Of a DNA stretch of 40,990 nt, positions 1 to 35,265 are shown one piece after another. Each line of letters starts with the position of its first letter. Position 1 is the stretch's first letter. The notes under the pieces were generated by a model. That model made no database searches. It was given only the letters and a program-made list of their open reading frames with translations, and was not told where the DNA came from. Source of the DNA: Candidatus Aquicultor sp. (GTDB lineage: Bacteria; Actinomycetota; Aquicultoria; Aquicultorales; Aquicultoraceae); the NCBI GenBank assembly GCA_036504445.1, contig DASXVE010000008.1, forward strand, positions 1 to 40,990. Reading direction: 5' to 3'. The position numbers and the translations under genes are program-made.

Positions 1-2020
1 GGTCGACTTTGCCGATATCACGATAGGTTGCAATCGCCGCTTGAACAGGCTCGTCCGGATGATATTTCTGTGCCTGGTACCAGCTGATGACCTCATCCGC
101 TGTGGTATTGGCAAGGTTTTTGCTGAAGAGGCGATTGTACGCATCGACGTCCGGCTCGACACCTTCGCGCTGCATGGTTTCAAGCCAGAGTTTTGCTGTA
201 TTGTAATCGGGCGATTTTGCCACCATGAGGTTATAGGTTTCCTCGTTAGGCATAATCCCCTGCTTTTTCATCGAATCAAACCATGATTTTGCGGTGTCAT
301 AGTACGGAGCGTTGGAGATGAGCGCGTTGTAGCTCGCGATATCGGGCTTAATACCCTCTTCACGGATGGTTTCAAGATATGAGAAGACCGCGTCCATGGT
401 CTCCCTGATCAGCTTGCGCGCAACCGCAAGGTACGGGTAATCGAGAGCGATTTTAAGCGCCTGATCGATGTGGCCTGATTTCTGGTATGTGGATATTACG
501 ACCTGGATGGGGTCTTCCGAATCGATCCCATGCTCTTTATACCAAGCGAGGACTTCCTCAGCATTCTTGCCGGCCAGGTTTTTGCTAAACAGCCTGTTGA
601 ACGTGTCGATGTTTGGTTGGATGCCGTCACTCTTCATCGCATCGAACCAGGAATTTGCGGTTGCAAAGTCGACTGCTTTGGTAATCAAGCTGTTGTATGT
701 TATGACGTTTGTCCTGATGCCTTCTTCCTGCATCATCTGTATCAGTGCCGCCGCATTCTCATAATCGGGCGCTTTGGTCAGGAGCCTGTTAAATGCGATT
801 AGGCCAGGTTGGATGCCGTCGATAAGCATCGCGTCGAGCCAGAACTTCGCTTTTTCATAATCAAGCGCTTTGGATATAAGGGCGCTGTACGAGCTAAGGT
901 CCGGCTGGAAGCCGGCGTCCTGCATTGCGCTGAGCCAAGCTTTCGCAGTGTTGTAATCGGGTGCTCTCGCGACCAATATGCTATAGACCGGCGCGGCCGG
1001 TGCAATCCCCTGTTCTATCATGGCATCATGCAAGGTGAGCGCCGTAGTATAATCCGGTGCTTTTGCTACGAGCCCCGTGTAGGTTAGGGTATCGGCCTGG
1101 ATGCCGTCCTCAAGCATCATATCGAAAAGCGCTTTTGCATGGTCGTAATCAGGTGCTTTTGCGATAAGCGCACCGTAAGTTGTCGTGTTAGGTATGAGAC
1201 CGGCTTTCTTAACCGTGTCGAGCAGGTGAAGCCCGACCGGATACTCAAGCACGTGTGCGATTAAGTTATTTACGCGTGCAAGCGCATCGGCTGCAGGTTT
1301 TTCTTCTGCTTTACCCTGCGTTCCGGATGCCGTTACCATGCGCTTGGCAAGCTCGGTTGCCGCCACATCGGCCGCTTCTAAGTTGCCGATAGCTTTTAAT
1401 GTATAAACAAACGGCTCGGCGTTACTACTACTTGATATTGCAGCAGGGATTATGTCGCCGAGCACGTTCATTGCGAAGTCGTCAACGACCGCCGGCAAAT
1501 CGCTCCCAGTGCGAGCAGCTAGATTGGCGGGCGCCATATTAAATATTTGAGCGACATGCTTGGCAACAGCCTCGTCGACAAGCACCTCGTCCGCTTTGCA
1601 GTAATCGGTCAGAGCTGCCGCTTTGCCGGCGCTTTCGCCGACCCATTCTTTTTGGCCGCCCGGCAGCTCAATCAACCTGTCAGGGCTGCCAAAAAGCGCA
1701 ATTCGAAGTGAGGGAGTACGATCAGCCGCAATGCCGACCGTTTGTGTTAGCTCGCGTTTGAACGTGCGGGCGAGAATTGTCGCCAGACAACACAATAGGG
1801 GCACGCTTGCCCCCCTGTTCGTCATCAACAACCAATTACCAGCATATTTTAATGAAATATCTGTAAGTTCAAGCCCCTCCAGATGCATCTTAATTTGTTC
1901 GGCTACCAGTACATTCAAGCGAGTTTGTTTCGAAGTCGGCATTGCTGTGTTGCTTCGTACGGGTGTTTCCATGTCCACTGAAAGGCAGTAAACTAGAGGC
2001 AATTGTCTGTGGGATTCCAT
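1..2020 (-). CDS. Pentatricopeptide-like repeat protein, partial (runs off left edge)
   Basis: An open frame on the minus strand from ATG at 2020 to the window edge, 673 codons, with no stop. An AAAGGAAG site lies 12-13 nt upstream of the ATG. Residues about 25-165 resemble a degenerate class III nucleotidyl cyclase homology domain: a hydrophobic strand, then RIALFGSPDRL, and ADEVLVDEAV as in the usual cyclase end motif. I see no metal-binding aspartate pair, so it is probably non-catalytic. From about residue 280 it consists of repeats of about 32 residues of the form YxxLIxKAPDYxxAKxWLDAMxxxGIxPD, which look like PPR repeats shortened by three residues (usual length 35). Two longer units (starting NRLFSKNLA) recur about 190 residues apart, a second-order duplication. 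PPR proteins generally bind RNA, but no RNA target is visible here. The repeat assignment is fairly sure, the function is not. Confidence 0.75.
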   Translation of the reverse strand, partial: MESHRQLPLVYCLSVDMETPVRSNTAMPTSKQTRLNVLVAEQIKMHLEGLELTDISLKYAGNWLLMTNRGASVPLLCCLATILARTFKRELTQTVGIAADRTPSLRIALFGSPDRLIELPGGQKEWVGESAGKAAALTDYCKADEVLVDEAVAKHVAQIFNMAPANLAARTGSDLPAVVDDFAMNVLGDIIPAAISSSSNAEPFVYTLKAIGNLEAADVAATELAKRMVTASGTQGKAEEKPAADALARVNNLIAHVLEYPVGLHLLDTVKKAGLIPNTTTYGALIAKAPDYDHAKALFDMMLEDGIQADTLTYTGLVAKAPDYTTALTLHDAMIEQGIAPAAPVYSILVARAPDYNTAKAWLSAMQDAGFQPDLSSYSALISKALDYEKAKFWLDAMLIDGIQPGLIAFNRLLTKAPDYENAAALIQMMQEEGIRTNVITYNSLITKAVDFATANSWFDAMKSDGIQPNIDTFNRLFSKNLAGKNAEEVLAWYKEHGIDSEDPIQVVISTYQKSGHIDQALKIALDYPYLAVARKLIRETMDAVFSYLETIREEGIKPDIASYNALISNAPYYDTAKSWFDSMKKQGIMPNEETYNLMVAKSPDYNTAKLWLETMQREGVEPDVDAYNRLFSKNLANTTADEVISWYQAQKYHPDEPVQAAIATYRDIGKVD

Positions 2021-30882: not shown

Positions 30883-32493
30883 CTAACCGCTTTTCTCCTT
30901 CGCTTTGCCTGCTGGCTGCTGTTCAACCGGCAATCCCAGAAGCTCCTTAATTGTTTTACTTCTATTGAAATACTCCAGTTTGCGGCGTGCTATAACAATT
31001 CTTTTTGGATCTGCATCTTCGATGGGACCTTCCAGGGCATAGATATCAAAGAGTCGCAATGCCTCTTTACAGAGGCTTGCGTGCCATGCTTTACGAGCCT
31101 CCATGCCATCGGCAGCAGATGCAAGAGCTGTTTTCAGGTTATGCAGCGTCTCGTAAAATGCTGGTTCAGTGTTCTGCCAGAAACTATTACTTATAAACGA
31201 AGTGTCACCCTTCACTTCGCCCGGCCGCTTGAACCAAGCCTTTTTTACGGCAATCTGCACATTCCTTGCAATTTCTGCAGCTGACTTGACCATGCCTGCC
31301 ACAGTGTGCTCGTACTCGTCTCGCAAAGACATCTCCATGTAAAGCAGAGGCATCTTTGCTTCGTACCAACAACGAGCCGTCATGTCTTCCATATCAAATC
31401 CAAAAGCCCACAAGCGAAATTGCCAATCTTTAAGGTTTTGTTGTCGGTTCTCCTGAAATTCGTGAACAATACGGGCAGGCACTCGACGTTCTTCCGCATT
31501 TTCTTGTACAAAACCAAGCCAGTATCGGTAGCTAACACCGCCACGCTGTCCTTTGGCAGATATGGGTAAGCCGTCTTTGTAACTGTACGGAGAAAGAGGA
31601 TGCAGCCAAGCACCTGTGAAATTCATGCCATAATTCTTGTCTTGATATGCTTGAATTAAATGGCCAAATGATCCGCACACATCACACATACCCGCCTTCA
31701 ACGAATCTAGATTCAACCTAATTCGACGTGGCATTCCCCAGAACACCATCGCAGGGTGGACGTCTTCAGGAGTAGTATCTATTCCATTCTTGTTTTCGCT
31801 GGTCCTGGTTTTTCCAAGCCAAGGAAATATATCACTCTCAGCTATCGGTGCCGTGTTTCCATGGGTCCGCAGAAATATGTTACTCTCTAGTACATTAAGC
31901 CAGATTAAGTGCCAAAGCGTGCTGTGACCTTGATCACCAAGGACAAGAGTCGTTAATGGACCTCCACCACGTAATGATGTCCTAAAACCAGGACCACCCT
32001 TAGGCGCATTGGTCTGCATTGTAAATAAGGCCATCGCACAACATGATGAGCAAAGTGCTTTTACTGTATTACGCTTTACGAAGTGATCCTTGTTTTCCTT
32101 GCAGGTGTTTTCGCCCGGCATGTCTATCAATAAACGATCGATGCTTCTCTCTTTAGCCTCCAGTCTATCCTGATCTTGCATGAACCTTGCTCCATCCCCA
32201 CCAAGCTCAAAGGCATGTCGAACAGTTGAAAACTTTGCCTGCAATTCTTCGGGCGCAGATGGCTCTGTAAGCGCCTTCTTCCATTCGATTCTATTAGCGG
32301 GCGCAGCCACGGTTTGCATGAGTCCGATAAGGAACTGGATAAGGGCGCCGTTAAAATCTGGCCGCGGGGCATTAAGGGCAACAACAGGGTTGACATCAAA
32401 ATCGGAAGTTATCTGCCAGGGTGCGATCATCATTTCTGTTCCATCCCGTCGTTTAACCGGAATCCACTTTTCATCTATGAGATTGAACTGCAT
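30883..32493 (-). CDS. cas8e: Cascade large subunit Cas8e (Cse1/CasA)
   Basis: 536 residues, starting MQFNLIDEKWIPVKRRDGTE, the family hallmark. KGGPGFRTSLRGGGPLTTLV is the conserved central motif, and a C-terminal four-helix bundle follows from about residue 380. Cse1 recognises the PAM and recruits Cas3. A cluster CSSCC (about 150) and CDVCG (about 275) are possible zinc ligands. The ATG directly follows the cas3 stop, with GAGGAGGT inside the cas3 end as the ribosome site. Confidence 0.96.
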   Translation of the reverse strand: MQFNLIDEKWIPVKRRDGTEMMIAPWQITSDFDVNPVVALNAPRPDFNGALIQFLIGLMQTVAAPANRIEWKKALTEPSAPEELQAKFSTVRHAFELGGDGARFMQDQDRLEAKERSIDRLLIDMPGENTCKENKDHFVKRNTVKALCSSCCAMALFTMQTNAPKGGPGFRTSLRGGGPLTTLVLGDQGHSTLWHLIWLNVLESNIFLRTHGNTAPIAESDIFPWLGKTRTSENKNGIDTTPEDVHPAMVFWGMPRRIRLNLDSLKAGMCDVCGSFGHLIQAYQDKNYGMNFTGAWLHPLSPYSYKDGLPISAKGQRGGVSYRYWLGFVQENAEERRVPARIVHEFQENRQQNLKDWQFRLWAFGFDMEDMTARCWYEAKMPLLYMEMSLRDEYEHTVAGMVKSAAEIARNVQIAVKKAWFKRPGEVKGDTSFISNSFWQNTEPAFYETLHNLKTALASAADGMEARKAWHASLCKEALRLFDIYALEGPIEDADPKRIVIARRKLEYFNRSKTIKELLGLPVEQQPAGKAKEKSG

Positions 32494-35265
32494 TTAAACC
32501 TCCTCTTCATTAACAATGATCCCCGTTGCATGGTTGTAGGATAGAATCACTTCGACACCTTTCTTGTTCAGCGCCTTGCCCCGCCATATTCCATCCTTAC
32601 CAATGGACAGCGGAACGAGGATGCTCCATTTACCTCTGTCTGGTAAACGGGCTTTCAATTGCTCAATCTCAGACCTGAGCACAGGATCATCATGCTCAGC
32701 TTCAGCATTTACCAAGACACTCCGCAGACTCACTTGGCTCATATCCCAAGGGAAATCACCTTTCGCATACCATGGAGATAGGACTTTGCCGTCCCAGCGA
32801 ACAAGACGAACCGTGGTCTCCATGTCACCCAGCCGTGTCGGAGTCTGCGTATCCTCAAGCCATTGGTTAGGCGTGGCGACGTAACCTTCCTCAAGTGTCA
32901 GCGCATTGATTCGCGCAAGCGACCTATCGGCCTGCCATTGCGCCTCAGCCTGCAAATCGCGTTGCTGGAGCGATGCGGGTATTAAATCGACGCCCTCGTC
33001 GGTGTAGGCGGCTTCAATCAGTATTCTCGCATCATCAGGCATACGAAGAACGCCCTTTTCCTGCAATAATCGCGCAGTCAACCATAAACAACCATGGCTT
33101 GGATAAACGAATGCACCTTTCGGAAAAACGTTCTCGTACCAGTCTCTGCCGGCAGAATCGATCGGCAAAGGCCCGTGAATAATAAAGCGGGGTAGCTCAC
33201 GCCGGTCACGCCCTGCACTAGCTTGCAACAGGTTCCCCCGTTCGTCGCGCAGATGACGGTGCAGTCTTCCGGCACGCTGAATCAACAAATCCATGGGCGC
33301 AAGATCAGAGATAAGCAGATCGAAGTCCAGGTCAAGAGATTGTTCTGCCACCTGCGTTGCTATCAAAACTTTCCCACTCCGTTCTTTCTCGCCGCTCTCC
33401 TTGCCAAAGGTAGCACAAACAGCCTTCTCAATATCCAGACGGTCCCCCATGGCGAAGCGAGCATGAAAAAGCATAACGCGATCTGTTTCGAACTCCGCCC
33501 GAAGGGCCTCATACGCAGCCATAGCATCATGCACAGTGTTCCGTATCCAGCAGACGCACTTTCCCTTGTGCGCAGCCTCTACTATCAGGCGCTTTACTTC
33601 GTCACTCTCCGCAACGATCTTCACGATAACGCTGCTCCTACGCTGCGAGAAGGCTTCCAGCGGATATTCGGCAAGTGTCTCGCGGGATACATGAGTTGCT
33701 AGCGGATAGGCAGCGCATTTGACGTGCGGGGAAACTTGCGTAGTAAGCCCTTGGACAAAACTGTCAACCAATCCCTGCCGCACCTTCATCGGCAGGGTAG
33801 CAGACAGCAAAATCGCACTCCCGCCTAAAGCCGCATGGAATGTTAGCAAAGTTTTCAGGAGCATATTCATATACGGGTCGTAGGCATGCACCTCATCGAT
33901 GATTAGAATATGTTCGACAAGACCCAGGAGCCTCAGCGACTGGAAACGGGATGGAAGAATTGCCAGCAGTGCCTGGTCAAGAGTTCCTACCCCCACATCG
34001 GCTAGCAGGGCCTTCTTCCGGCGATCAGCCAGCCAACTTACACACTGGGCTCCAGCGGTTTCATCATTATTTCCATATTCCTGGTGAATCTTATAGGAAG
34101 CCGTTATAGAACGAAGAAAGGATTCGGAAAGATGTCGTGCACCATGGGTCAAAACAAGCGAGGGGGAGGATTCTTCAGTAAAGAATTTTTCATACACCGT
34201 GGCTATCCGCTCATACATCGCATTCGATGTCGCCATGGTAGGTAACGCGATAAAGATGCCATTTCCCGCTCCGCCTGCCATTAGGCGTTGCGCTAGAGAT
34301 AATGCCGCCTCAGTTTTGCCGGAACCAGTAACGTCTTCGAGAATAAAAAGCTGTGGAGCAGCTGCAATCGGGCATTCCGTAACGTGCTGCTGCAACGGGG
34401 TCGGTTTACTGATCGCTGGGAATAGGCCCATGAATGTGTTGTCGTATTGGCGTGGCAATGCTGCACTAAGACCTGTCTCGCGAATTGCTCGTTCTGCCTG
34501 CGGTAAGGCATATTGGCGCCAATATTCGGCAAGCGACATTTGATTATCACAAAGAGGAAACCATTTGCTGTTCGATCCTATCCAGTCGCAGAGCACTGCA
34601 AAACCAGCCATGAGCCAAGAAGCTATTGGCATTTGCTCATAAATGATCGTGGGAGACTGTGTATTGGAGACTGTTCCATACTCGTGAAGTAGAAGAGTAT
34701 GAAAGTCCACAAAAAAGTCTACTGCAGCATTTATATCATCACGGTCAAAAAAACTTGATAAGGCGAGGGGTAAGCCGTTCGGCCCTTTCATGCGTGGCGG
34801 CTCCCCGTGATGACCAGTATGTGCCTTAGCGATAAAAGCAAAAATCTCTTGCCAATATTCTGAAAACGCTTCAAAATCAGGCAGATCAGAGAAAGCCCTC
34901 GCACGTGATTGCCGCAAACCATAAGTCCAGAGCAGATTCCCAAGACTGTCATGGCGGACAGGATAAGACCTGTTGCTAACCTTTCCTTGCATCTGCTCAA
35001 ATAAATCAGGTCTCAAATTCTGAAAGCTTTCAGAAAACTTGCCGAGATCGTGTAAACCTAAAAACAGCACTAGCCAATGCGAGCATAGCGCGGCGTTGAG
35101 ACCTGTTATAGTGCTGATCCTTTGCTGTACGCCATCACGCTGCTTCAGCAATATATGCCCCACTGCGGCCACATCGAGGCAATGGTATGCCAGGCGATGA
35201 TAAGCGGCTCCATCCCTCTCTGCCTTGCCCCAATAGCGGAAGTAAGTTTGCACTGAGTTATTCAT
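32494..35265 (-). CDS. cas3: CRISPR-associated nuclease-helicase Cas3 (HD-DExH)
   Basis: 923 residues. The N-terminal HD nuclease has metal ligands in AYHCLDVAAVG (His28, Asp31) and GLHDLGKFSESF (His72, Asp73), then KAHTGHHGEPP. The SF2 helicase core follows: VTGSGKTEAALSLAQRL (Walker A), IIDEVHAYD (DEVH box), LLSATLP, and QRAGRLHRH (motif VI). It is recruited by Cascade and degrades the target. It is the first gene of the operon; only a weak AAGAG precedes its ATG, and the promoter should be in the 35.27-35.5 kb region. Confidence 0.97.
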   Translation of the reverse strand: MNNSVQTYFRYWGKAERDGAAYHRLAYHCLDVAAVGHILLKQRDGVQQRISTITGLNAALCSHWLVLFLGLHDLGKFSESFQNLRPDLFEQMQGKVSNRSYPVRHDSLGNLLWTYGLRQSRARAFSDLPDFEAFSEYWQEIFAFIAKAHTGHHGEPPRMKGPNGLPLALSSFFDRDDINAAVDFFVDFHTLLLHEYGTVSNTQSPTIIYEQMPIASWLMAGFAVLCDWIGSNSKWFPLCDNQMSLAEYWRQYALPQAERAIRETGLSAALPRQYDNTFMGLFPAISKPTPLQQHVTECPIAAAPQLFILEDVTGSGKTEAALSLAQRLMAGGAGNGIFIALPTMATSNAMYERIATVYEKFFTEESSPSLVLTHGARHLSESFLRSITASYKIHQEYGNNDETAGAQCVSWLADRRKKALLADVGVGTLDQALLAILPSRFQSLRLLGLVEHILIIDEVHAYDPYMNMLLKTLLTFHAALGGSAILLSATLPMKVRQGLVDSFVQGLTTQVSPHVKCAAYPLATHVSRETLAEYPLEAFSQRRSSVIVKIVAESDEVKRLIVEAAHKGKCVCWIRNTVHDAMAAYEALRAEFETDRVMLFHARFAMGDRLDIEKAVCATFGKESGEKERSGKVLIATQVAEQSLDLDFDLLISDLAPMDLLIQRAGRLHRHLRDERGNLLQASAGRDRRELPRFIIHGPLPIDSAGRDWYENVFPKGAFVYPSHGCLWLTARLLQEKGVLRMPDDARILIEAAYTDEGVDLIPASLQQRDLQAEAQWQADRSLARINALTLEEGYVATPNQWLEDTQTPTRLGDMETTVRLVRWDGKVLSPWYAKGDFPWDMSQVSLRSVLVNAEAEHDDPVLRSEIEQLKARLPDRGKWSILVPLSIGKDGIWRGKALNKKGVEVILSYNHATGIIVNEEEV

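Follow-up and report, generated by a model that had tools for sequence, protein, structure and literature searches.

A 32-residue pentatricopeptide repeat protein with an N-terminal cyclase-fold domain in Candidatus Aquicultor and rare bacterial and archaeal relatives

A gene at one end of a contig from Candidatus Aquicultor sp. encodes what is, by profile and predicted fold, a member of the pentatricopeptide repeat (PPR) superfamily, in which repeat units of 32 residues follow an N-terminal domain with the fold of class III nucleotidyl cyclases. We consider it likely that this is a modular, solitary and sequence-specific binder of single-stranded RNA (ssRNA) whose shortened units follow the ordinary PPR code. 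Its binding to RNA is an inference, as there are no binding data. The window, which is the whole stretch of 40,990 nucleotides analysed, is the entire contig C8 of a genome of 2.57 Mb. The cyclase-fold/PPR fusion gene occupies 2..2020 on the minus strand, where the reading frame (2020 to 2) is open as the window begins; 673 codons are present, and the lost 3' end continues in contig C10.

The identity of the repeat was examined with profile searches. Pfam PPR models (PF13041, PF13812, PF12854, PF17177 and PF01535) and the NCBIfam repeat model TIGR00756 all matched the window protein above cut-off, the best matches being PPR_2 (2e-39) and PPR_3 (8e-38), with TIGR00756 at 4e-19. Since a search of 14 control genomes returned no PPR match, these values exclude a chance origin of the repeat match. 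In a phmmer search of the PDB, designer PPR proteins topped the list (5i9d, 1e-57). An identity as TPR or SEL1 repeats was rejected because PPR models and PPR structures dominate over the array; TPR models match just the C-terminal tail of relatives.

Comparison of the window protein with itself gave sharp peaks at 32 and 64 residues, and a profile scan resolved 11 units, all on the minus strand. PPR block 1 (residues 247-470, window 611..1282) holds seven 32-residue units by profiles and model, the first of them divergent (starting at residue 247) and the others canonical (starting at residues 279, 311, 343, 375, 407 and 439). It is followed by a capping unit with the motif NRLFSKNLA (residues 471-502) and a 58-residue helical spacer (503-560), together at 341..610. 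Block 2 (residues 561-624, window 149..340) adds two canonical units starting at residues 561 and 593, and a second NRLFSKNLA capping unit (residues 625-673, window 2..148) is truncated by the contig end. The profile scan showed a 90-residue step after every capping unit in the window protein and in its relatives, which have up to 18 units with a spacing of exactly 32 residues nearly throughout. Divided by its capping units, the window protein has two blocks of repeats, and the relatives have three.

These computed results bear on an earlier note made from the sequence alone. Its assignment to PPR held, as did its count of at least nine tandem units and its 32-residue period, which is exact. 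The span that it gave, 1-1190, is right for residues 279-673 and misses the N-terminal domain at about 1451-2020 of the window. Its estimate that the NRLFSKNLA units lie about 190 residues apart failed, the distance being 154. It had also placed the loss of three residues in the stretch between the helices, and this nearly held. When aligned with designer PPRs, the three-residue gap falls after 'LID' and before 'KAP', opposite their 'GLC', and the missing residues map to the end of helix A, ahead of the turn.

The fold of the protein is a prediction, and no structure has been solved. An AlphaFold model of the window protein (mean pLDDT 86) shows one pair of helices, about 10 and 13 residues long, for every 32 residues, stacked in a continuous superhelix. 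The two antiparallel helices per unit and the superhelical stacking that mark a PPR protein are thus present in the prediction, and helix pairs of this kind are what the earlier note had named as support for its reading. Foldseek ranked cPPR-Telo1 and PPR10 first for this model. A model of a relative, L047 (the simplest of the full-length members, with 549 residues in the frame used), fits cPPR-NRE (4pjr) locally with a TM-score of 0.77, an rmsd of 2.6 A and 42% identity; given this local fit, we take the low TM-scores over the whole length to be an effect of a flexible superhelix.

The window protein differs from the classes of PPR protein with which it was compared. It resembles P-class proteins (PPR10 and designer cPPR/dPPR) in sequence profile, in its superhelix of helix pairs and in pairs such as ND, NN and SN at the fifth and last positions. 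However, its period of 32 fails the P-class length of 35, with the gap where helix A ends, and it differs further in being prokaryotic, in its fusion to a cyclase fold and in an array broken by capping units. The short S motifs of PLS-class plant editing factors (31-32 residues; PMC13041630) are similar in length. In S motifs the missing residues come from the helix B/loop end, whereas the units of the window protein keep a 'GIxPD/N' end and are shortened where helix A ends. They are moreover uniformly short, without P-L-S alternation and without a DYW match. PRORP, which joins PPRs to an NYN nuclease, is resembled in that the PPR_long model matches the window protein, but the general PPR models match it better than this one and no NYN nuclease match was found in the 673 residues present. 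Full-length relatives terminate in a TPR-like tail, not in a nuclease.

The truncation coincides with a repeat in the assembly. A stretch of 109 bases at the contig end (1..109, minus strand) is identical to the first bases of contig C10, which carries the last 94 residues and a stop. Simply joining the two contigs would give a protein of about 766 residues with two super-repeats, whereas complete relatives have 988-1051 residues (frames read) and three. Because the second and third capping units of the relatives are 249-250 residues apart, we propose that a piece of about 750 bases, expected to hold a third super-repeat, may be missing between two identical 109-base copies; this is an inference, and a possible explanation of the break. 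Elsewhere in the window, a type I-E-like CRISPR-Cas system is represented by its Cse1 and Cas3 genes (30883-35265, minus strand).

The base bound by a unit of a plant or designer PPR protein depends on its fifth and last residues: ND specifies U, NS specifies C, SN specifies A, TD specifies G, and NN specifies C or U (PMC4837458, PMC13041630). Code-type pairs, mostly NN, ND and SN, were computed in about 82% of 111 non-capping units, and orthologs have slot codes such as SN, ND and NN in common. The earlier note had suggested that the short repeat might have a ligand code of its own; this was not supported, as these positions carry ordinary PPR-code residues. The codes of block 1 drift between genera, and those of block 3 in the compared orthologs are SN, NT/NN/NS, SN/GN, ND and NN, for which a target of roughly A-Y-A-U-Y is predicted. 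When the 32 positions were ranked by slot-specific conservation between the orthologs of different genera, position 5 ranked first and the last position third, and none of 1000 trials with shuffled slot labels reached the observed values. This shuffling test also responds to ordinary descent. A bootstrap over slots widened the ranks (median 2 for position 5 and 5 for the last position), and position 27, which is not a code position, ranked second. For these reasons we regard the signal as good and not decisive, and as not one of code alone; packing or the shared descent of each repeat could contribute part of it. Over all units, the association of S, T or G at position 5 with N at the last position was not significant (p = 0.10).

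Further evidence on the code positions came from L047, which has four tandem, near-identical units of 96 bases with only five differing codons. Codons 5 and 32 change jointly from S..N to N..D, giving the pairs SN, SN, ND and ND. In the published code this change is from A to U (PMC4837458), and the predicted reading is A, A, U, U. The array was copied recently and differs at code positions. By composition, slot conservation and this paired change, the expectation that a PPR protein carries code residues at its fifth and last positions is met. Among close relatives dN/dS is 0.13-0.21, with the repeats below the N-terminus, and on these values the gene is under purifying selection.

It is conceivable that the repeats serve instead as a protein-protein scaffold, with short units acting on a protein partner as TPRs do and PPR-like residues inherited without an RNA function. 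The TPR-like C-terminal tail, the slot conservation of position 27 and a shorter helix A that could alter the groove speak for this alternative. Against it, PPR-code residues predominate at positions 5 and last and are conserved by slot, and both positions change jointly in the near-identical repeats of L047. We consider a protein scaffold unlikely.

We propose that in the ssRNA-binding protein that we favor, each 32-residue unit (with about 10 residues in helix A and 13 in helix B) would stack on the next in the superhelix, its fifth and last residues would face the bases, and one nucleotide would be read per unit by the ordinary PPR code. The protein is inferred to read from its N- to its C-terminus along RNA from 5' to 3'. 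Its most likely role would be after transcription, where, by holding a particular RNA, it may shield that RNA, keep it open or make it inaccessible. RNA binding, reading direction and regulatory role are all inferences from sequence, and no RNA-binding data exist.

The N-terminal domain (residues 1-190, window 1451..2020, minus strand) is joined to the repeats by a linker that is helical in the structure model (residues 191-246, window 1283..1450, minus strand). No Pfam cyclase model reached an E-value of 5 against this domain. A profile of nine members searched against the PDB placed nucleotide cyclases first, with weak matches (E 0.013-0.075) in which the GD and vGD..R motifs nevertheless line up. 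The structural evidence comes from L047 and not from the window protein; in Foldseek, the L047 model resembles bacterial, mycobacterial and eukaryotic cyclase domains with TM-scores to the target of 0.59-0.78. Profile and L047 structure together assign the domain to the class III cyclase fold. To our knowledge, no class III cyclase carrying PPRs is known. A plant PPR protein is reported to have adenylyl cyclase activity in vitro, and a review cites it as a case of a moonlighting protein with an AC motif (PMC12237933).

The catalytic residues were compared using roles (metal Asp, Lys, Asn, Arg) that we take to be those of class III cyclases in general. All 12 members read outside Aquicultoraceae have both metal Asp residues, the Lys and the Arg, as well as the Asp on the adenine side that precedes the vG motif, but all 12 have Arg at the position of the transition-state Asn. 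Within Aquicultoraceae, at least one metal position is lost in each of the six N-termini read, the window protein included. A complete class III catalytic set is therefore absent from the members read both inside and outside the family. Since at least one metal position is lost, the domain in Aquicultoraceae is likely a cyclase fold without activity, a judgement on catalysis that is inferred from residues. Elsewhere, the domain could retain the ability to bind a nucleotide or to convert one, and this activity too is an inference. In our favored reading the domain would most likely serve in dimerization or nucleotide binding.

A second reading that we regard as possible, though not likely, is that of an RNA-sensing cyclase, in which the PPR array recognizes an RNA and switches the cyclase-fold domain; an ancestor would have made a cyclic nucleotide from an RNA signal, and the Aquicultoraceae copies would have kept the architecture and lost catalysis. 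It is supported by the class III fold seen by profile and structure and by the residues retained in 12 of 12 members outside Aquicultoraceae. The Arg at the Asn position in the same 12, the metal positions lost in six of six Aquicultoraceae N-termini and the failure of Pfam cyclase models count against it.

As for genomic context, in four genomes from three genera the PPR gene is followed on the same strand, at a distance of about 55-216 bases, by the RNase P RNA gene (rnpB; L034:610-924, L036:10294-10610, L041:2334-2634 and L035:5007-5326). Neither the class A nor the class B Rfam model gives this RNA a strong score, and it is best read as class B (88-101 bits vs a cut-off of 97); it is single-copy wherever found. 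Such a neighbor raises the alternative that the PPR protein binds or assembles the adjacent class B-like RNase P RNA, or that, like the PPR domain of PRORP, it binds pre-tRNA substrates. We consider this very unlikely. In a fourth genus (g4) both genes are present and apart. Genome G007 has rnpB without the PPR gene, yet with the same upstream neighbor as G009, where that neighbor is separated from rnpB by the PPR gene and a cold-shock-like sequence. By eye, rnpB is preceded by a promoter-like box of its own; the AYAUY motif predicted for block 3 is found in rnpB alike with and without the PPR gene; relatives outside Aquicultoraceae have no rnpB nearby; and the protein lacks an NYN nuclease domain. 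The adjacency is more likely local synteny at a site of gain and loss than evidence of function.

Two open reading frames face rnpB from its 3' side, one that reads like a tyrosine integrase (L034:1093-2241) and a shorter homolog (L036:10732-11205), and in these two genomes they hint at an insertion site beside rnpB. No conserved partner gene near the PPR gene indicates a pathway. A role in defense was rejected for want of a weighty PADLOC match or conserved defense neighbors; PADLOC HORMA matches near 1e-6 fall on the PPR helices.

The computed distribution of the gene is narrow, and the rarity in bacteria that the earlier note had stated held in genome samplings of several phyla. The gene is present in 8 of 11 Aquicultoraceae genomes, the window genome counted, and no PPR match at 1e-6 was found outside this family in 296 Actinomycetota sampled. 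Relatives are also rare in Armatimonadota, Chloroflexota and archaeal metagenome-assembled genomes (MAGs), with one in 350 genomes in the phylum of L047, 10 in 291 in that of L048 and L052, and three in 295 in that of L051, which is archaeal; those bearing names are Candidatus Aquicultor and its kin. Copy number is mostly one in the genomes read. It is possible that some matches on short contigs are binning errors; the contigs of L048 and L051 are long, at 285 kb and 219 kb. A tree built on the N-terminal domain alone separates one Aquicultoraceae clade from one clade of all others. In the latter, two archaeal-phylum sequences group with those of Dehalococcoidia and CSMAG; horizontal transfer of the cyclase-PPR gene is likely. 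An origin from a phage or plasmid was rejected, as there was no phage match, no confirmed relative on viral contigs, and a sole plasmid match that resembles a plant gene. The latter, from a Rahnella plasmid record (L063:5047-7257), is a 35-residue PPR gene, plant-like with a targeting peptide, and may be sample contamination.

The 32-residue period is kept in every cyclase-PPR relative examined, in bacteria and archaea, and this supports the suggestion of the earlier note that the short repeat marks a separate class. Other prokaryotic PPR proteins differ. One (L112:797-3739, plus strand; 981 residues) has an AAA/STAND-like NTPase region followed by PPR units of 31-32 residues; it would be unusual for PPRs to act as the sensor in an NTPase of this type. 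Another (L135:792-5288, minus strand; 1499 residues) has 35-residue PPR-like units and, by eye, a histidine-kinase-like ATPase at its C-terminus, making it a second prokaryotic PPR architecture, of canonical period. Bacterial proteins with PPR matches have been noted in Legionella longbeachae, Ralstonia and Rhodobacter (PMC2824747), and no description of a prokaryotic PPR family such as this one was found in the open-licence literature searched.

PPR proteins are regarded as a eukaryotic and mostly organellar invention, with few bacterial cases. A bolder reading, which we put forward only as a possibility, is that of a prokaryote-specific class of 32-residue PPR proteins, thinly spread in bacteria and archaea, in which recognition of a particular RNA by the PPR code would lead to a nucleotide signal where the cyclase site is more intact. 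A conserved bacterial and archaeal family with code residues makes the origin of PPRs a testable question, and likewise whether prokaryotes own modular, code-based readers of RNA. With 32 residues per unit, it also offers a smaller natural scaffold for direct comparison with designer PPRs.
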